This document shows positions 48,856 through 58,213 of a DNA stretch of 64,000 bases, piece after piece (the first letter of the stretch is position 1; each line of letters opens with the position of its first letter). Source of the DNA: OM182 bacterium MED-G24 (lineage in GTDB: Bacteria > Pseudomonadota > Gammaproteobacteria > Pseudomonadales > Azotimanducaceae). The notes under the pieces are model-generated. The model was given only the letters and a program-made list of their open reading frames with translations. It did not search any database and was not told the origin of the DNA. The translations under genes and the position numbers were made by a program. The stretch is taken from contig NTKD01000002.1 in assembly GCA_002457275.1 (NCBI GenBank), positions 1 through 64,000 of the forward strand. The letters run 5' to 3'.

Positions 48856-49665
48856 CTAATCTCGATACGCATCATGGATCATTCGTAGATCCTCGCCTTC
48901 AGGACGACTGTTCCGTCGCCAATCACCCGAATCTCCGCGACACGGCACCGCATCCATCAGCACCCGTTCCGCGCCCTCCTTCACAGTCGCCGAAGAGGGG
49001 ATGTACCGGAGTGTCAGCCCACAGCGTCGTCGGTTCGTTGTATTGGGAAGAGAGCCATGGACCAGGGTACTGGCATGCAGTGAAATTTCACCAGCGCGAA
49101 GCAGGTTATCAACCGGCTCCCCAAGTTGCTCCGCGTCTGGGATTTCCTGCTGCAACGCCACCGCACCTTCAGCAGGCTGCCAGTCAACTTTACCGAGCCG
49201 ATGACTACCGGGGATAAACCGCATGGGTCCCATATCCTCCAATACGTCATCAATCGCCAACCAGGCGGTAACTGTGTCAGTAGGTCGAACAGGCCAGTAG
49301 GTCGCATCCTGATGCCAGGGTACACGGCGCTCGTCGCCTGGCACTTTGCAGAAGTAGTGCGACGTCCAGCACACAAAATCAGATCCGAGGAGGTCCTCTA
49401 CGTATCCCAGAATCGTGGGGTGCATTGCCAGGTCCCAGATGCCCTGACATCGATGGTGATAGCCCATGATGGCATATGCATTCCGACCATCCTTCATGCC
49501 CTGCATCGTCGAAAGCAATTCATCAAAGTACAACCGCGAAGCTGACGCTTCTTCCTGACTAAGTGCGGGTAGCGGCGATAGAAAACCGTCGCGATTGAAG
49601 TCGCTAATCTGAAAGGGCGTGAGATTCCGAGCGTTCGCTGGATCAGACTCTGTGAAACCTATCAT
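48856..49665 (-). CDS. Phytanoyl-CoA dioxygenase-like protein, second of three
   Basis: This Fe(II)/2-oxoglutarate oxygenase fold has an intact iron site, His-x-Asp in VPWHQDATYW, and a distal His in STLVHGSLPNTT. PMRFIPGSHRLGKVDW and the RRCGLTLRYIPS 2-oxoglutarate Arg region support it. Length 269. Such proteins hydroxylate many small molecules and the substrate cannot be told. It follows the histidine-phosphatase gene by 72 bases and may be the last gene of the mevalonate-kdsB operon. Confidence 0.85.
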   Translation of the reverse strand: MIGFTESDPANARNLTPFQISDFNRDGFLSPLPALSQEEASASRLYFDELLSTMQGMKDGRNAYAIMGYHHRCQGIWDLAMHPTILGYVEDLLGSDFVCWTSHYFCKVPGDERRVPWHQDATYWPVRPTDTVTAWLAIDDVLEDMGPMRFIPGSHRLGKVDWQPAEGAVALQQEIPDAEQLGEPVDNLLRAGEISLHASTLVHGSLPNTTNRRRCGLTLRYIPSSATVKEGAERVLMDAVPCRGDSGDWRRNSRPEGEDLRMIHDAYRD

Positions 49666-49737: not shown

Positions 49738-50358
49738 TCACGGCCTGATGTTCCAACCATCGACGACCCAACTGTCATCTCTGGGACCATGTCGAAAGAT
49801 GCCCACAGCCCCCGTCGACAATTTCGGGTGATGACGCCCCAGAAATCCTTCGAAGTCATCGGTGACATGTGGTGCAAATCGGGCGACGCCGTTGCTGGTG
49901 ACTACCAGCGCTACGTCGACACCTCCTTCAATCAACCCGTCAGCAAAACGGCGCCACTCGACGACAATGTCATCCGGGTCAACACGCCAGCCGGGAGGCA
50001 CCTCTGCGCGTTGATTCCATGCATCAATGGCTGCCTGTCCCACACGTGCCACAACATCCGATTCCGGTTGATTCTCGTCAGGGCCATAGTCAATTTCATC
50101 AAAACAATTCAGGGCTTCAGGTTCCCGGTCAACCCCGCAACGTTCGAGCGCGATCCTCGCCATTTCTCGAGTTCTCTGCAGCGTGGACGTAAACACACGA
50201 TCCGGCACCAGCGCCTGCTCCGCAAGGTAGTCCCCCAAACGGGCTGCCTGAGCCCTTCCACTCTCCACGAGCGGCAGGTCAGTTCTGGCACCAACTCGGG
50301 TTGGCACGTCATCTGGACCAAACGTATTGCCGTGACGGGCGATAACCAATGTGGTCAC
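49738..50358 (-). CDS. Histidine-phosphatase (PGM) family protein with altered second motif
   Basis: The catalytic RHG motif is present (VIARHGNTFG), with a two-part insertion before LPLVESGRAQAARLGDYL and FTSTLQRTREMA. The second motif, usually SHGG with the second active-site His, reads VVTSNGVARF here, so that His is replaced. It could use another residue or have a narrow role. The GTG start overlaps kdsB by four bases (GTGA), so it is translated with the operon. The substrate is unknown. Confidence 0.75.
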   Translation of the reverse strand: MTTLVIARHGNTFGPDDVPTRVGARTDLPLVESGRAQAARLGDYLAEQALVPDRVFTSTLQRTREMARIALERCGVDREPEALNCFDEIDYGPDENQPESDVVARVGQAAIDAWNQRAEVPPGWRVDPDDIVVEWRRFADGLIEGGVDVALVVTSNGVARFAPHVTDDFEGFLGRHHPKLSTGAVGIFRHGPRDDSWVVDGWNIRP

Positions 50359-51176
50359 GACAGCAACCGCTCGGCCCGCTTTACGTCGTCTGGACTATCA
50401 ACACCTGACATCGCGGGACGGCCTCGGTAGTCCACTTCAACGCAGTGAATCCGATAGCCATTTTCAATCAGGCGCAACTGCTCCAGCCCCTCCAATTGCT
50501 CATAGTGAGCTGGCTTCAACGAGACAAAGCCCTCCAACGCATCGCGGCGAAACCCGTAGAGACCGACATGACGCATCACCGGCGACAGGCCATCATCACC
50601 AACATCCGCACGCAACTGCTTTTCATTACGGACAGCCGGTAAAATCTGTTTGCTGAACCAGAGCGCTTCGCCGTTATTGGACACAACCACCGTGGTGCCC
50701 GAAAACGGCGTCACCTTCTTTTGCTCGCGCATAAGATCCAGCTCATGCCATCGCAACCTGACTACGGGCGTTGCGACATCAGCAACACTGTCCTCAAGTC
50801 CCAGGATCAGACCAGAGACGAAGTCCGCGGGCGTCAGCGGCGCATCTCCCTGCAGATTGACCACATAGTCGGCAGCATCGTCTTTGGCTCTTAGCGCTTC
50901 GCGTGCTCGGTCGGTCCCTGTAGGACAATGCTCCGGGGTCATCACCACATCTACAGATCGTTCATGGCAGTGTTCACTGATACGCTCATCGTCCGTCGCC
51001 ACCAACACGTCAACCCGGTGACTCGGGCGTGTGAACATCACTTCTTCAGCGGCACTTCTTGCAATATCAACCACCCGGGACAACATACTCTGACCGGCAA
51101 TCTCTACGAGCGGCTTGCCTGGGAGGCGCGTCGAACCCCAACGTGCCGGCACCACAATCAATGTCTCTGTTGTCAT
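50355..51176 (-). CDS. kdsB: CMP-KDO synthetase
   Basis: KdsB activates KDO for the inner core of lipopolysaccharide. VVPARWGSTRLPGKPLVEIAG, VDVVMTPEHCPTGTDR, VVNLQGDAPL, RHVGLYGFRRDAL, EQLEGLEQLRLIENGYRI and the C-terminal SGVDSPDDVKR match the family. At 273 residues it is somewhat longer than usual. It lies inside the mevalonate operon, ten bases after idi, which is an unusual place for it. Confidence 0.92.
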   Translation of the reverse strand: MTTETLIVVPARWGSTRLPGKPLVEIAGQSMLSRVVDIARSAAEEVMFTRPSHRVDVLVATDDERISEHCHERSVDVVMTPEHCPTGTDRAREALRAKDDAADYVVNLQGDAPLTPADFVSGLILGLEDSVADVATPVVRLRWHELDLMREQKKVTPFSGTTVVVSNNGEALWFSKQILPAVRNEKQLRADVGDDGLSPVMRHVGLYGFRRDALEGFVSLKPAHYEQLEGLEQLRLIENGYRIHCVEVDYRGRPAMSGVDSPDDVKRAERLLS

Positions 51177-51186
51177 TGATCCGTCA

Positions 51187-51753
51187 TCAACCTGTGGGAA
51201 GGTGTTCGGGGAATTCCTGTGTCAACCGCGTCCATTCCATCCTAAGCCACGGTGTGAACTCATCAGGCTTCGCCGCAAGTACGTAGGTCAGCTCCGCTGC
51301 GCTCAGCAATCGCACCTCAGAAATTTCGTTGGTATTTGGCTGAAGCGACGCCATATCGACATCGCCAACCCATACCGAACAGAGTTCATGTTCAGATCCC
51401 ACGTCGGAAAATGACGCCTGATAGATGAACTTGTAGACGCACTGTACTTGTGCGGCAACTCCAAGCTCCTGATGCATACGACGTTGTACCGCTTCAGACA
51501 TCACCTCACCCATTCGAGGATGTGAGCAGCAGGCATTGGACCAAAATCCCGGCCAGAGCCGCTTCGCCGGACTACGCCGCTGCAACAACACCTCGCCATC
51601 TTTGGTAAACAGGAAAACAGAAAACGCACGATGCAGTACACCGTCACCTTCATGGCAAGCTAGCTTGCTTTGAGACCCGATCTCCCGGTCCTCCTCATCG
51701 ACCAGGATCAGTGCCTCCTGGTCCGAAGACACCACCGGCATGAGCTCTGTCAT
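51187..51753 (-). CDS. idi: Isopentenyl-diphosphate delta-isomerase, type I
   Basis: Idi interconverts IPP and DMAPP, a step that is required when IPP comes from mevalonate. It is a Nudix-fold enzyme with the catalytic Cys in SNACCSHPRMGE, the Glu in HELCSVW, and LHRAFSVFLF. Length 188. Its ATG overlaps the stop of the HMGR-mevalonate kinase gene (ATGA). Confidence 0.94.
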   Translation of the reverse strand: MTELMPVVSSDQEALILVDEEDREIGSQSKLACHEGDGVLHRAFSVFLFTKDGEVLLQRRSPAKRLWPGFWSNACCSHPRMGEVMSEAVQRRMHQELGVAAQVQCVYKFIYQASFSDVGSEHELCSVWVGDVDMASLQPNTNEISEVRLLSAAELTYVLAAKPDEFTPWLRMEWTRLTQEFPEHLPTG

Positions 51754-54011
51754 ACCGTCACCTGCAAGGCCTGATACCCTGCGCGCGCCAGAGAACCAGC
51801 AACATTGACACCGTGCGCATCGTCTTCACAAAGGCAAACCACCGAACCTCCTCCGCCGGCGCCTGTCAGCTTCGCGCCCAACGCACCCGCGGTTCGAGCC
51901 AGCTGAACCATTCGATCCAGCTCCGGACTGGAAACAGAGATGGCGTTCAGTAAACCGTGGTTCACCGTCATCATATCTCCCAGCGACCGATAGTCGCCTT
52001 CAGTGATAGCCGCAAGTCCCGTTTTAGCCACCATTTCGAAGTTATCGAAGAGCTGTTCGTACAGACTATGGTTCCTGCGCCATCGCTCACGTACACCCGC
52101 GACCATATCCACCGTCAAACTGGGCTGACCTGATATTCCAATCACCAGTTTCATGGGTTTTTCGAAATGAACCGCTTCGACTGTCGGATGCTCTCCTGAT
52201 CGAAACAGCAAGGGCTTGCCGAAAGTCGCTATCGTATTGTCAATGCCTGAAGGCGTCCCATGCGCCGCTTTCTCGCAGCGGAACGCCATCGCATTCACCT
52301 CATCGTCGCTGAGTCCTAGGCGAAAATGCTGATCGACGCCACGTATCACCGCTACTGCAATGGCCGCGGATCCACCAAGCCCCATCGCCGCAGGAATATT
52401 CGGTTGTACATGCACAAGGAAGCGCTTGCCAGCGACACCCAGTTCTTCAAACACACCAGAGACCGCAGACCACCAGATTGAATTGGTATGCTCCAGCTGC
52501 CCATCAATATCCCATGCGGGAACATGAATCTCCGGCGGTGAATCTGAGTCCATAACCTCTGCGATGACCGCATCAGGGATCGGGACGGCGATCGCCGGAC
52601 GACCATAGACCACCGCATGCTCGCCCAAAAGAATGACTTTCCCAAAGGATCTAGCAATGGTCTTGCCGGACGAAGGCGACTGATATTTCCCTGATTTTCG
52701 ACTTTCACCGCGTGCGGACGACACGTCACCGTCAAGCTCAGTCATTATCACTCGGGCCGCTTCAACCTTGATATCATTCTGCTCAATCAGTCGCGACACG
52801 ACTTCTTCGAAAAGTTCCTGAGGGACCCCCGCTGACAGGGCAACGCTGCGCGCATGCAGTGACATATGACCCTTTTGAATCCCCACCGTGGACAATGCGC
52901 GCACTGCCGCGAAGTTCTGTGTAAGACCGACGCTCGCCATCACCTCAGCGAGTTCCTTCGCGCTGGGCGCACCCAGCATTCGGTGCGCTATGTTCGCGGA
53001 TGCATTGGCGCGCAGTGATCCGCCCTGCGTGCCTACCTTCAACGGAATCTCAATCTCGCCCCGGAGGTCTCCATTGTTTGTGACATGCCATCGGGTCAAG
53101 GCAGTGTAGCGGCCACTCCGACTCGCGTAGGCATGTGCGGACGCCTCGATGGCTCGCCAGTCGTTCCCTGTCGCAATCGCAACAGAGTCAATGCCATTCA
53201 TGATGCCTTTGTTATGCGTCGCGGCACGATAGGGATCAATGCTCGCGAACTGGGACGCAAGAACAATCCCGTCACGGACTTCCTCTCCGGTGTAGCCCTT
53301 GCCAGAAAGTTGATCCGTTGGCACCGTGACCGATCCCCGGACCAGAGCGCGATCGGTGAGATTGGAGAGTATTCGAAGGAAAACCCGTCCTCCCGTCAGC
53401 GCTTCTATGTCAGGCGCGATTTCCTCACACATTGTATTAATGATGTTGGCGCCCATCGCGTCACAGGTATCGACAAGCAGATGAACTACCAGCATCTGCG
53501 GGTTATCGGGTGAACGCGGAAATGTGCGGACTTCAATATCGTGTGCACCACCACCCCGCGCGACCATGTTCGGGTGCAACGCGTTGAGTTTCGAGAGCAA
53601 CTCCGCTTTGCTCGCAAGCACCTGAAGCTCGCCATTCTCGAGGTCCGGCGGATTCACCACCTGAACCTGACCAATCAAAAGGGACTCGTCCGCCGTTGCG
53701 GTCATACCGCCACCGGAAGAGAAGGTCTTCGCCGCAGACGACAGCGCAGCAACAATCGACGGCTCTTCAACCACCAATGGAATCAGATAGTCACGATCAT
53801 TGATCACGAAATTAAGACCGACACCCATGGGCAAGCCCATGACACCCACCACGTTCTCGATCATCTTGTCCGCGAGTTCAGGTACCAGGACATGATCACT
53901 GGCGGACAGTGACTTGGCATCGTCATCAGCCAGCCAGCCATGTCGACGGATTACCTCCAGACGTTCTTCTACAGACAGCTTGTAGAATCCGGGGAATCTG
54001 GCCTTGCTCAT
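51750..54011 (-). CDS. Fused HMG-CoA reductase (class II) and mevalonate kinase
   Basis: One 753-residue frame encodes two successive enzymes of the mevalonate pathway. Residues 1 to about 427 are a class II HMG-CoA reductase. Glu83 in PLVVEEPS, Lys268 in HNKGIMNG, Asp284 in TGNDWRA and His382 in KGHMSLHAR match the Pseudomonas mevalonii catalytic residues almost number for number. After a polar linker (about 428-450) comes a complete GHMP mevalonate kinase (451-753): FGKVILLGEHAVVYGRPA, the ATP loop PAAMGLGGSAA, SGIDNTIATFG with the catalytic Asp, and KLTGAGGGGSVV. Codons run continuously with no internal stop. It overlaps the preceding kinase gene and idi by four bases each. Confidence 0.93.
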   Translation of the reverse strand: MSKARFPGFYKLSVEERLEVIRRHGWLADDDAKSLSASDHVLVPELADKMIENVVGVMGLPMGVGLNFVINDRDYLIPLVVEEPSIVAALSSAAKTFSSGGGMTATADESLLIGQVQVVNPPDLENGELQVLASKAELLSKLNALHPNMVARGGGAHDIEVRTFPRSPDNPQMLVVHLLVDTCDAMGANIINTMCEEIAPDIEALTGGRVFLRILSNLTDRALVRGSVTVPTDQLSGKGYTGEEVRDGIVLASQFASIDPYRAATHNKGIMNGIDSVAIATGNDWRAIEASAHAYASRSGRYTALTRWHVTNNGDLRGEIEIPLKVGTQGGSLRANASANIAHRMLGAPSAKELAEVMASVGLTQNFAAVRALSTVGIQKGHMSLHARSVALSAGVPQELFEEVVSRLIEQNDIKVEAARVIMTELDGDVSSARGESRKSGKYQSPSSGKTIARSFGKVILLGEHAVVYGRPAIAVPIPDAVIAEVMDSDSPPEIHVPAWDIDGQLEHTNSIWWSAVSGVFEELGVAGKRFLVHVQPNIPAAMGLGGSAAIAVAVIRGVDQHFRLGLSDDEVNAMAFRCEKAAHGTPSGIDNTIATFGKPLLFRSGEHPTVEAVHFEKPMKLVIGISGQPSLTVDMVAGVRERWRRNHSLYEQLFDNFEMVAKTGLAAITEGDYRSLGDMMTVNHGLLNAISVSSPELDRMVQLARTAGALGAKLTGAGGGGSVVCLCEDDAHGVNVAGSLARAGYQALQVTV

Positions 54012-54970
54012 TCTGTTTCCTGCATAAATCGATCGGTGGACACCAGATCGGCTCGGAAGCCGGTGGCAGCCAGCATCTCGTTCAGTTCTTTAAGGTGATC
54101 AGCATCCGTCGCCACAACCATGCCGAAGTCCCCCCCTCCCGCACCAGACGGCTTATAGACGCCACCTGACCGCGTTACGAGGTCGCGTAATTCTACGTGA
54201 ATGTCGGTGTAGAATCCCGTCGAGCGCTCGCTGAGCGCATTCAGGCAACTGTCCATCTCGGCAATGCCTCGTCGAAACGCGTCTTCACCGATACCAGGCC
54301 GGCTCAGATCTGTCGCAATGGGAATGAGCGGGTGCATCAAGGCTTTGTATTGCCCTGGATCTGACACCTTGAATTGCTGCATACGATCCAGATAACTAAC
54401 AGTGCCGGCGCCCCGTCCCGTCCACACGAATCCGAAGGCCAGGCCTGATGGTAGCCGGGCTGTCACGGGTTCCTCAGCTATTCGAAAACGCACCAGGTCA
54501 TCCAGCACAGCCACCGTCACATCAGCGCCACTGCCAAGCCCGCCCTGAAACCGTTGATGGCAAGCCATCGCGAGCACAAGGTACTCGTACTGGGACCAAT
54601 TCGCTGGTTTTGGGAACAGCGCCTTAAGTAAGGCTACCGTCAACGCCGCACTTCCACCCAGCCCCAGCTTTGTGACCTCATGGTAAACCTCGGTCTTGGT
54701 AAAGAAGGCGCGCGTGTCCAGACATAACCCTCCCTCTGGCTCGGTAAAGGACAGATTCCGACGGCTGAGTTCGTCGCAAACAGACTTGACCAGCGGGATC
54801 TCATGGTAGGGCAACGCGAGATCCCGATCCGCCCGCGTCCGCCAGTCGTCGCCTTCCTCACGCGAGACGATGGCTCGCTGGGACACTGGCATGACCAGTG
54901 CCGGCGCGCCCTCCATGACGGCGTATTCGCCTGAGAGGAACAGTTTTCCAGGTGCAGACGACAGGATCAC
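54008..54970 (-). CDS. GHMP kinase, probable phosphomevalonate kinase
   Basis: This GHMP kinase has SAPGKLFLSGEYAVMEGAPA, the ATP loop KLGLGGSAALTVALL, a GGLGSGADVTVAV segment and the C-terminal SGAGGGDFGMVV. The neighbours supply mevalonate kinase and mevalonate diphosphate decarboxylase, so phosphomevalonate kinase is the missing step and the best call. It has 320 residues. The start is GTG 54970. A hairpin with an AGGCGG-like ribosome site in its loop lies directly upstream. Confidence 0.8.
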   Translation of the reverse strand: MILSSAPGKLFLSGEYAVMEGAPALVMPVSQRAIVSREEGDDWRTRADRDLALPYHEIPLVKSVCDELSRRNLSFTEPEGGLCLDTRAFFTKTEVYHEVTKLGLGGSAALTVALLKALFPKPANWSQYEYLVLAMACHQRFQGGLGSGADVTVAVLDDLVRFRIAEEPVTARLPSGLAFGFVWTGRGAGTVSYLDRMQQFKVSDPGQYKALMHPLIPIATDLSRPGIGEDAFRRGIAEMDSCLNALSERSTGFYTDIHVELRDLVTRSGGVYKPSGAGGGDFGMVVATDADHLKELNEMLAATGFRADLVSTDRFMQETE

Positions 54971-55052: not shown

Positions 55053-56024
55053 TCACCGCCATTGCACCGCTGGTTCACCACCGATTCCAGACTCAATGAC
55101 CGTCCTCACCCCCGACAACGAGTGCAATTCGTCGCGGCACTGATGGGCATCATCTCGATGACAGACGACTTTCACCTGGGGACCAGCGTCGATGGTGTAG
55201 AACACACGACGTCCCTCTTCGCGCCATCGTTCAACTGTTTGCACGACCACCAGTGTACCGGGATTCCAGTAAAAGATAGGAGGGCTTGACCCCATAATGG
55301 TGGCATGCATGTTGAGGCAACTCCGGACACTGACGTTAGCCAGACCGTCGAAGTCAGATGCCTCAATCGACCGAAGGGCCTCCGCCATATCGGCCGGATG
55401 CCGATCAACCCAACTCTGATAGAAAGGTGAAGAGTCCGCGGTCCTACGCATCGCGTCCGTGGACCCAACAGACTTTTCGGCTGAGTCCGTTACGGCAATA
55501 AACACGGTCAGTGGCCATTTGTTCGGGTCAACCTCGATCGGCTTCGCCGCACCATCTCCCTCAAGCTCAATCGCAACAAAGCCCCCAAACACAGAACGAG
55601 CGGCAGAGCCGGATCCCAGGCGTGCGAGACGTGATACATCCGATCCGTCCAGCCCCATATCAAAGAGCGCATTGCTACCTATCGCCAGCGCCGCAAAACC
55701 TGAAGCCGACGAAGCGAGTCCAGCGCCGGTCGGAAAATCGTTGGTCGACTCAACCTTTACAGGCCCCATAAAGGGGTAGATTTGACGGCCTCGATCTAGG
55801 AAAGATGAAATTCGATCGACCCCTGGTCCGGAACTCTCACCATTCAACGAAATCTGGTCCCTGAGTCCCGGTTTCGCACGTGTTATCAACGTGGTTGTCG
55901 TCAACGCTGCGAGACTGATCGACAGAGAACCCGTCGCCGGCAGGTTGGCTTCCTCATCCGCCTTGCCCCAGTACTTGACCAGCGCCACGTTGGCATTGGT
56001 CTGAACGCGAACCGTATCACCCAC
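55053..56024 (-). CDS. mvaD: Mevalonate diphosphate decarboxylase
   Basis: MvaD converts mevalonate diphosphate to isopentenyl diphosphate. ANVALVKYWGKADEEANLPA, SLSISL, TGAGLASSASGFAALA, GSGSAARSVFGGF and the catalytic Asp in YTIDAGPQVKV distinguish it from other GHMP proteins. Length 323, GTG start at 56024. It is the first gene of the leftward mevalonate operon. Confidence 0.94.
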   Translation of the reverse strand: MGDTVRVQTNANVALVKYWGKADEEANLPATGSLSISLAALTTTTLITRAKPGLRDQISLNGESSGPGVDRISSFLDRGRQIYPFMGPVKVESTNDFPTGAGLASSASGFAALAIGSNALFDMGLDGSDVSRLARLGSGSAARSVFGGFVAIELEGDGAAKPIEVDPNKWPLTVFIAVTDSAEKSVGSTDAMRRTADSSPFYQSWVDRHPADMAEALRSIEASDFDGLANVSVRSCLNMHATIMGSSPPIFYWNPGTLVVVQTVERWREEGRRVFYTIDAGPQVKVVCHRDDAHQCRDELHSLSGVRTVIESGIGGEPAVQWR

Positions 56025-56321: not shown

Positions 56322-57221
56322 TTGTCGCCAGCAGAACCACCAGAATCCACCGAGTTCGTTGATCGCGTTGACGGCTACATATCACGCATTGATGGGTTCA
56401 TCGCAGGACAGCTGCCGGACTCACCGGATCAATTCCATCAGGCACTCCGGTATGCAGCGCTGGGAGCGGGCAAGCGCATTCGACCACTGCTGACCTACGC
56501 AACCGGCGAGGCCCTGGGTGTGCCCGCAGATATTCTGGACTATCCAGCAGCCGCGCTTGAAATGACGCACACCTATTCGCTGGTCCACGACGATTTGCCT
56601 GCCATGGATGATGATGACCTACGCCGGGGACGGGCTACGGTTCACGTCGCGTGGGACGAGGCCACCGCCATTTTGGTCGGTGATGCCTTACAGGCCATGG
56701 CTTTTGAGATCCTGGCGAAAGCACCGGTTGAACCGCCGATCATCCGCAATTGGGTCTCGATTCTGGCGACCGGTGCAGGCCATGGTGGTATGGTCGGCGG
56801 CCAGGTCCAGGATATGGCTGGTGAGCAACGATCGCTCACTGAACAGGAACTCAGGCAGATGCATGCCGCCAAAACCGGGAAACTCATCAGTGCGGGACCG
56901 CTCATGGCTGCGGCGGCCGCAAACGCGTCGGAAGCCATCACCACCAGCCTTGTAGAGTACGGTCATCACATCGGTCTCGCATTCCAGATCAAGGACGATG
57001 TACTGGACGTGACCCAGTCAACCGAGGCGTTGGGCAAACCTCAGGGATCGGACGCAGGTAACCGGAAATCAACGTTCGTCACACTGCTGGGTCTTGACGA
57101 ATCCATCCGCCAATTGACGACTCATTATGGCGCGGCTGTTGAGGCGCTATCCGCGATGGCTCAGTCGCCTCCCGAAGGGCTGAAGTACCTCGCGGATTAC
57201 ATTGCAAACCGGGAAAAGTAA
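56322..57221 (+). CDS. ispA: Farnesyl/geranyl diphosphate synthase
   Basis: This short-chain prenyl transferase condenses IPP with allylic diphosphates. The first aspartate-rich motif is LVHDDLPAMDDDDLRRG, and the second is AFQIKDDVLDVTQ. GAGKRIRPLL and KTGKLISAGPLMAA complete the IspA pattern. The start is TTG at 56322. Length 299. xseB and dxs, the usual ispA neighbours in Gammaproteobacteria, are absent, which fits use of the mevalonate operon it diverges from. Confidence 0.93.
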   Translation: MSPAEPPESTEFVDRVDGYISRIDGFIAGQLPDSPDQFHQALRYAALGAGKRIRPLLTYATGEALGVPADILDYPAAALEMTHTYSLVHDDLPAMDDDDLRRGRATVHVAWDEATAILVGDALQAMAFEILAKAPVEPPIIRNWVSILATGAGHGGMVGGQVQDMAGEQRSLTEQELRQMHAAKTGKLISAGPLMAAAAANASEAITTSLVEYGHHIGLAFQIKDDVLDVTQSTEALGKPQGSDAGNRKSTFVTLLGLDESIRQLTTHYGAAVEALSAMAQSPPEGLKYLADYIANREK

Positions 57222-57229
57222 GCGAACTT

Positions 57230-58036
57230 TCACTCGAGTTCAGGCGATCTCAAACCCGACGGGCCATGATCCGCACCCGGCTCATAGATGATCTGCCCGG
57301 ACCTCGTGAAAGGCACCGCATGGGCCCACGCACCGCCCGTGGAGCGCTGGATGACCTCACCGCTGTACTGCGCCAGGTAAGCACGTCTGGGTGCTTCCGT
57401 GGTATTGGCAGAGCTTCGATGCAGAGTAGTGCTTGAGAACACCACAACACTGCCCGCGGGTACCTCAATCGGTTCACCGGGATCACTACCTTCGTAGCCC
57501 ACCAGGTCATTCGTATCGGGCTCAGCCCGGTGCGGCAATATGTGGTTGCGTGTATTGGCACGATCGTGGGGCATGACAAAAATGGTTCCGTTGTCTTCAC
57601 TCATGTCATCCAGCGCACACCAGCAGGTCAGGTAGGGTCGATGTCTCGTCTTGGGATCAGAGAATTTCACATAACCACCATCCTGGTGCCATGCGAACTT
57701 CATACCCTGCTCCGCGCCTTTGACCACCCACTGTTCCACGAACAGATAGGATTCATCGCCGAGGAAGGCGCTCGTGATGTCCGCCATCAGTTGTCCGAAC
57801 AGAAACCCAGGTAATCGCCGACTCTCCCGGTAACGACCGCTGATGAAGTATCGCTTGCCGCGATGTGTGATCCCGTAGGTCTCGCGACCACGAGCCTTCA
57901 TGCTGCCATCAACATAACCGACAAAATATGAGCATTCTTCGCGCAACATGGTGAGCGTCTCTTCATCGAGTACCCGTGGGAGGAGGGAGTAACCCTGTTC
58001 CACGAATTCCTGCCGGTGCCGAACTGTAATCTGCAT
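57230..58036 (-). CDS. Phytanoyl-CoA dioxygenase-like protein, third of three
   Basis: The iron site is intact: His-x-Asp in FAWHQDGGYVKF and a distal His in STTLHRSSANTT, with an Arg-rich segment for 2-oxoglutarate after it. MPHDRANTRNHILPH and PIEVPAGSVVVF are family-like. The start at 58036 has a strong GGAGGT five bases upstream. Length 268. It is more like classical PhyH proteins than the first copy. The substrate is unknown. It is convergent with ispA, with eight bases between. Confidence 0.86.
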   Translation of the reverse strand: MQITVRHRQEFVEQGYSLLPRVLDEETLTMLREECSYFVGYVDGSMKARGRETYGITHRGKRYFISGRYRESRRLPGFLFGQLMADITSAFLGDESYLFVEQWVVKGAEQGMKFAWHQDGGYVKFSDPKTRHRPYLTCWCALDDMSEDNGTIFVMPHDRANTRNHILPHRAEPDTNDLVGYEGSDPGEPIEVPAGSVVVFSSTTLHRSSANTTEAPRRAYLAQYSGEVIQRSTGGAWAHAVPFTRSGQIIYEPGADHGPSGLRSPELE

Positions 58037-58213
58037 AACTACCTCCGACGCGGACGCTAACATGGTCACCTTGTCAGCGCTATGCCAGCGCCGCCGGGGA
58101 CACCATCACCGGAACCTTCCTCGCAGACGCGCGGTCTATTGCGGTCTATGCCCGAGCGGGCGTACTTTGTAAACTTTCCCGCTGACCCGTGACCGCTGCC
58201 GCCAGGCGAACCC

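Follow-up and report, generated by a model that had tools for sequence, protein, structure and literature searches.

A natural fusion of class II HMG-CoA reductase and mevalonate kinase, carried by five bacterial phyla and likely of single origin

HMG-CoA reductase (HMGR) flux and the hand-over of mevalonate limit bacterial terpene production. On contig NTKD01000002.1 of OM182 bacterium MED-G24, the window (the whole 64,000-nucleotide stretch of DNA analyzed here) contains a frame that an earlier note, made from the letters alone, had read as a class II HMGR joined to a mevalonate kinase (MVK), the next enzyme of the mevalonate pathway, which leads to building blocks of the cholesterol type. 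The locus raises the question of whether such a protein is real, how the two enzymes came to be joined, and what the cell would gain by joining them.

Anatomy and conservation of the fusion protein

The reading of a single two-enzyme frame was borne out. On the minus strand, positions 51750-54011 form one open frame with an ATG start and 753 codons, and the encoded 753-residue protein lies above the cut-offs of both domain models. Specifically, TIGR00532 covers residues 2-387 at 404 bits (curated cut-off 260), PF00368 covers residues 14-387 with an E value of 2e-104, and the mevalonate kinase model TIGR00549 covers residues 457-727 at 240 bits (cut-off 163), with the GHMP N and GHMP C domains each above its own cut-off. 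The class II HMGR half (52728-54011, minus strand; about residues 1-428) contains the ENV dimer motif, the DAMGAN motif, the cofactor helix HPNMVAR (residues 146-152) and a C-terminal flap domain (about 378-428), the extent of which was taken from an alignment to 1qax over residues 4-425. The MVK half (51753-52667, minus strand; about residues 449-753) carries GKVILLGEHAVV, PAAMGLGGSAA, the catalytic Asp591 and LTGAGGGGS. Between them lies a linker (52668-52727, minus strand; residues 429-448) that is predicted to be disordered and is unconserved; a linker had been expected at about 25 residues, and its presence stands, while its length by the predicted model is closer to 20. As judged from these models and motifs, the protein is a complete class II HMGR followed by a complete mevalonate kinase. 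The frame opens with the HMGR, and no thiolase domain was found in a protein that holds only the PF00368 and GHMP domains, in keeping with the contrast drawn earlier with the thiolase-HMGR of Enterococcus.

Removing near-copies left 69 fusions for alignment. E83, K268, N272, D284 and H382 of the HMGR half and K458, E464, H465, S548 and D591 of the MVK half are invariant among them, and the GGGG loop of the MVK half is invariant or nearly so. The catalytic residues named beforehand (Glu83, Lys268, Asp284, His382 and Asp591) are thus all found at their predicted numbers. The dimer motif ENV.G is likewise kept, with E52, N53 and V54 invariant. The linker ranges from 10 to 86 residues in the same alignment and is unconserved in sequence. 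Comparison of the window gene with that of a same-genus relative gave dN values of 0.08 for the HMGR half and 0.05 for the MVK half but 0.57 for the linker (dS was saturated, and dN alone is given), which indicates, at the level of sequence, that both halves are under selection and that the join is free to drift.

An AlphaFold2 model built on an alignment of 68 fusions contains two confident folds (mean pLDDT 88.9, pTM 0.61), the mutual orientation of which is uncertain. The HMGR fold, with helices to residue 428, is followed by a disordered stretch at 431-448 (pLDDT under 50), and the MVK fold begins at about 449. When compared with VIA-align, model residues 1-423 matched the Pseudomonas mevalonii HMGR with Z 49, and residues 448-753 matched the Methanosarcina mevalonate kinase with Z 37. 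Among the solved chains listed, none spans both halves.

A biosynthetic operon and the supply of HMG-CoA

The fusion gene sits within a mevalonate operon on the minus strand. Upstream are a diphosphomevalonate decarboxylase gene (55053-56024; TIGR01240, 263 bits, above cut-off) and a GHMP kinase gene (54008-54970) that probably encodes phosphomevalonate kinase and shares 4 bases (ATGA) with the start of the fusion. Downstream, a type I isopentenyl-diphosphate isomerase gene (51187-51753) overlaps the fusion stop by 4 bases, also as ATGA. A farnesyl diphosphate synthase gene of the same pathway (56322-57221, plus strand) is a divergent neighbour. The presumed phosphomevalonate kinase falls far under every curated model (64 bits against a curated cut-off of 166) and looks like a divergent member of its family; its gene holds the same position in nearly all relatives. 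The order decarboxylase-phosphomevalonate kinase-fusion-isomerase was found again in most relatives whose flanking DNA was long enough to show it. The mevalonate block has a PF05721 phytanoyl-CoA dioxygenase family gene on each side (48856-49665 and 57230-58069, minus strand). Genes for a KdsB-like cytidylyltransferase and for a histidine phosphatase (49738-51176, minus strand) lie beyond the isomerase gene and share its orientation, as they do in the same-genus relative.

Carriage of the fusion and of the MEP pathway is mutually exclusive in the window's family. Among its 37 genomes, the fusion occurs in 22 and dxr in 11; the two never coincide, and both are missing from the remaining 4. The chance of zero overlap is about 1.6e-6 by a hypergeometric count in which related genomes are not independent. 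Moreover, a search for ispH in five fusion genomes and two dxr genomes found it in both of the latter and in none of the former. Taken together, the placement of the fusion inside a biosynthetic operon and its exclusion of the MEP pathway indicate that it is very probably a working route, and the main one, to isopentenyl diphosphate in the cells that carry it. The fusion thereby marks a block of Gammaproteobacteria in which the MEP pathway has been replaced by a mevalonate operon. The four genomes of the family with neither (G004, G012, G017 and G029; 91-100% complete) lack dxr, ispH and any HMGR, and two of them have an HMG-CoA synthase; either the mevalonate operon falls in an assembly gap each time or these bacteria use an unusual precursor route.

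The supply of HMG-CoA was examined with the Pfam C-terminal synthase model, an archaeal model and the relatives' own divergent synthase. By these searches no HMG-CoA synthase was found in the window's genome (G000) or in 13 of the 21 other fusion genomes of the family. The genome holding L061, from a close relative with a contig of 2.46 Mb, yielded none either. The other eight fusion genomes within the family encode a divergent synthase of ~500 residues, and in several its gene lies near the operon. Family genomes are 72-100% complete, such that single absences are not proof, and several of those lacking the synthase are 96-100% complete. An archaeal-type synthase in the window's genome was rejected, with no match at or near the cut-off; weak matches to the archaeal model elsewhere look like other thiolase-fold enzymes. 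In genome G025, genes for acyl-CoA dehydrogenase, carboxylase, biotin carboxylase and HMG-CoA lyase form a leucine-type cluster; a search of the window's genome revealed no such lyase. We tentatively consider it possible that this widespread, putatively bifunctional enzyme makes HMGR and MVK one inseparable step partly in cells with no recognizable HMG-CoA synthase, which would draw their HMG-CoA from leucine breakdown or from an unrecognized synthase.

Distribution and origin of the fusion

A search for other fusions with the same order, as the earlier note had suggested, yielded 71 distinct ones in five phyla, of which two are truncated where their contigs end. Within the window's family, the 22 carriers have the gene in full-length or contig-split form, and the other copies are 49-86% identical to that of the window. 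Relatives thus carry the fused gene rather than two separate genes, the arrangement that the earlier note had held would speak against it. In a class sample drawn evenly (n=369), the fusion turned up in at least eight genomes beyond these. Carriers among GTDB species genomes are mostly Gammaproteobacteria, joined by Calditrichota, Acidobacteriota, Actinomycetota (Cryobacterium and a MAG labelled Nakamurella) and Planctomycetota (one MAG); the phylum labels of some MAGs may be wrong, and the isolate assignments are firm. Four cultured isolates carry the fusion: Dyella monticola, Cryobacterium aureum, C. levicorallinum and C. psychrotolerans. Spread on plasmids was rejected, as no plasmid record covers at least 80% of the fusion and the matching records hold only stand-alone relatives of one half.

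In a tree of the HMGR half, built from the 71 fused rows and 47 stand-alone HMGRs, every fused row falls on one side of a single branch with SH-aLRT support of 100, and several independent fusions were rejected on this ground. Two fusions, L073 and L074, are only apparent exceptions to a single event, their contigs ending inside the MVK half. The next rows outside the fused clade are two from Myxococcota and those of Bacillaceae. Bacillaceae show the gene order of the fusion, with an HMGR frame that abuts or overlaps that of MVK. Taken together, the single fused clade and the adjacent, same-order genes of the nearest outside lineages make one fusion of neighbours likely, whereby the stop between an HMGR gene and the MVK gene following it in an operon would have been lost. 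In a myxobacterial MAG (L069:3467-5752), the HMGR ends with TGA and is followed, after three bases, by an MVK from GTG in the same frame; this arrangement resembles the state just before a fusion or just after a split.

The distances of the HMGR half and the MVK half are correlated with r 0.86, a value reached by 0 of 2000 permutations, which argues that the halves have travelled together. The tree of the MVK half is compatible with that of the HMGR half save for Bacillaceae, which it places inside the fused rows on a branch of 4.6. We take this position as a long-branch artefact with an unreliable placement, and owing to that branch the MVK-half tree was dropped as a guide to the origin. In both trees, the Cryobacterium fusions (L064, L066, L071 and L072) cluster with those of Salinisphaera and relatives (L046, L116 and L117), which suggests transfer of the fusion between Actinomycetota and Gammaproteobacteria.

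Mechanism, rival readings and known systems

From the anatomy of the protein and established knowledge of class II HMGRs, we infer that the fusion is in all probability a bifunctional HMGR-MVK enzyme on a flexible tether, which would have arisen once from neighbouring operon genes and spread among Gammaproteobacteria and then into other phyla. Its N-terminal half would reduce HMG-CoA to mevalonate and its C-terminal half would phosphorylate mevalonate with ATP, the two being separately folded catalytic domains held by a flexible linker. Such a loose linker would leave the reductase flap free to move, and both halves could still form their usual dimers, as the retained HMGR dimer motif suggests. 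The likely gain would be production of the two enzymes at a fixed ratio of 1:1. In addition, the kinase may take away mevalonate where it is made and so pull the reversible reductase step forward, for which a shared tunnel would be unnecessary.

The cofactor was considered from the corresponding helix. NADPH-type class II HMGRs have the motif (H/Y)xSxxxR in this helix and NADH-type enzymes have Dx(V/L)xxxL (PMC13370337). At the site of these motifs, the fusions have HPxMVAR, with H146 in 67 and R152 in 68 of the 69 aligned sequences, but position 148, which is S in the NADPH motif as published, is mostly K, N or R. The HPNMVAR helix of the window protein departs from that motif at its middle position and suggests NADPH as the probable cofactor of the reductase half.

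Several other readings have to be weighed against a flexibly tethered bifunctional enzyme. Packed halves or interlocking dimers might pass mevalonate directly between active sites within the protein; the reactions are indeed consecutive, and the fusion has been retained in five phyla with invariant catalytic residues. However, the linker is unconserved, disordered in the model and variable over an ~eightfold range (10-86 residues), and a pTM of 0.61 predicts no fixed arrangement of the domains. Thus, a loose tether fits these data better than a fixed channel, and we consider direct channelling unlikely. Alternatively, the protein may be cleaved in the cell, or MVK may also be made from an internal start, with the fusion securing equal amounts only. 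The disordered, fast-evolving linker is like those accessible to proteases, and the window protein has Met424 near the end of its reductase half, but a Met anywhere at 423-457 occurs in just 16 of the 69 fusions, such that an ATG start, the only kind considered, is unconserved. Separation into two proteins in either way appears decidedly improbable.

The TIGR00532 model carries the name "degradative", and the best solved relative of the reductase half is the Pseudomonas mevalonii HMGR, both of which would fit a reductase that runs from mevalonate to HMG-CoA with NAD while the kinase half competes for the substrate. Against this, the surrounding operon genes are biosynthetic, the MEP pathway is missing where the fusion occurs, and the NADH motif Dx(V/L)xxxL is replaced by HPxMVAR; a degradative direction is very hard to reconcile with these observations, and the name would mislead for this half. 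An annotation as "degradative reductase" likely also conceals the kinase half of the family. As to an assembly error or a frameshift that merged two separate genes, the window's genome is fragmented (86 contigs, 85% complete), but the two halves co-evolve and the same fusion recurs in dozens of independent assemblies and in the four isolate genomes. The same junction in independently assembled relatives, isolates among them, rules out misassembly, to which we give practically no weight. The fusion is a real gene, neither accident nor misassembly, and the earlier impression of a functional-looking protein holds, given its invariant catalytic residues and shared junction.

In titles, abstracts and passages from the open-access literature, we found no earlier description of an HMGR-MVK fusion; sequence databases surely already list such proteins, as domain architectures still awaiting examination. 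Members of the family, some of them from cultured bacteria, offer ready-made two-in-one enzymes with which to ask whether tethering consecutive enzymes helps. Among known natural fusions, the closest in kind is MvaE of Enterococcus faecalis, an acetoacetyl-CoA thiolase-HMGR (PMC13001223). Like the window protein, it joins a class II HMGR to another enzyme of the same pathway, but its partner is an N-terminal thiolase acting two steps upstream, whereas that of the window protein is the next enzyme and is C-terminal. IspDF, a common natural fusion of the MEP isoprenoid-precursor pathway (PMC13001223), joins non-consecutive steps, in contrast to the consecutive mevalonate steps joined here. The class II HMGR of P. 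mevalonii (1qax and others) has the same fold and catalytic residues and ~48% identity over the half, but it stands alone and has the NADH-type Asp146, where the window protein has His146 and Arg152. The mevalonate kinases of Methanosarcina mazei (6mde) and Leishmania major (2hfs) share the fold (Z about 37) and motifs of the kinase half at 31-32% identity and, unlike the fusion, are stand-alone enzymes. The Bacillaceae genes (Virgibacillus, Oceanobacillus and Ornithinibacillus), whose HMGR lies near the fused clade, have the order of the fusion but encode two separate proteins. Compared with these systems, both component enzymes are ordinary; what is new is their natural fusion, with its likely single origin and its spread.
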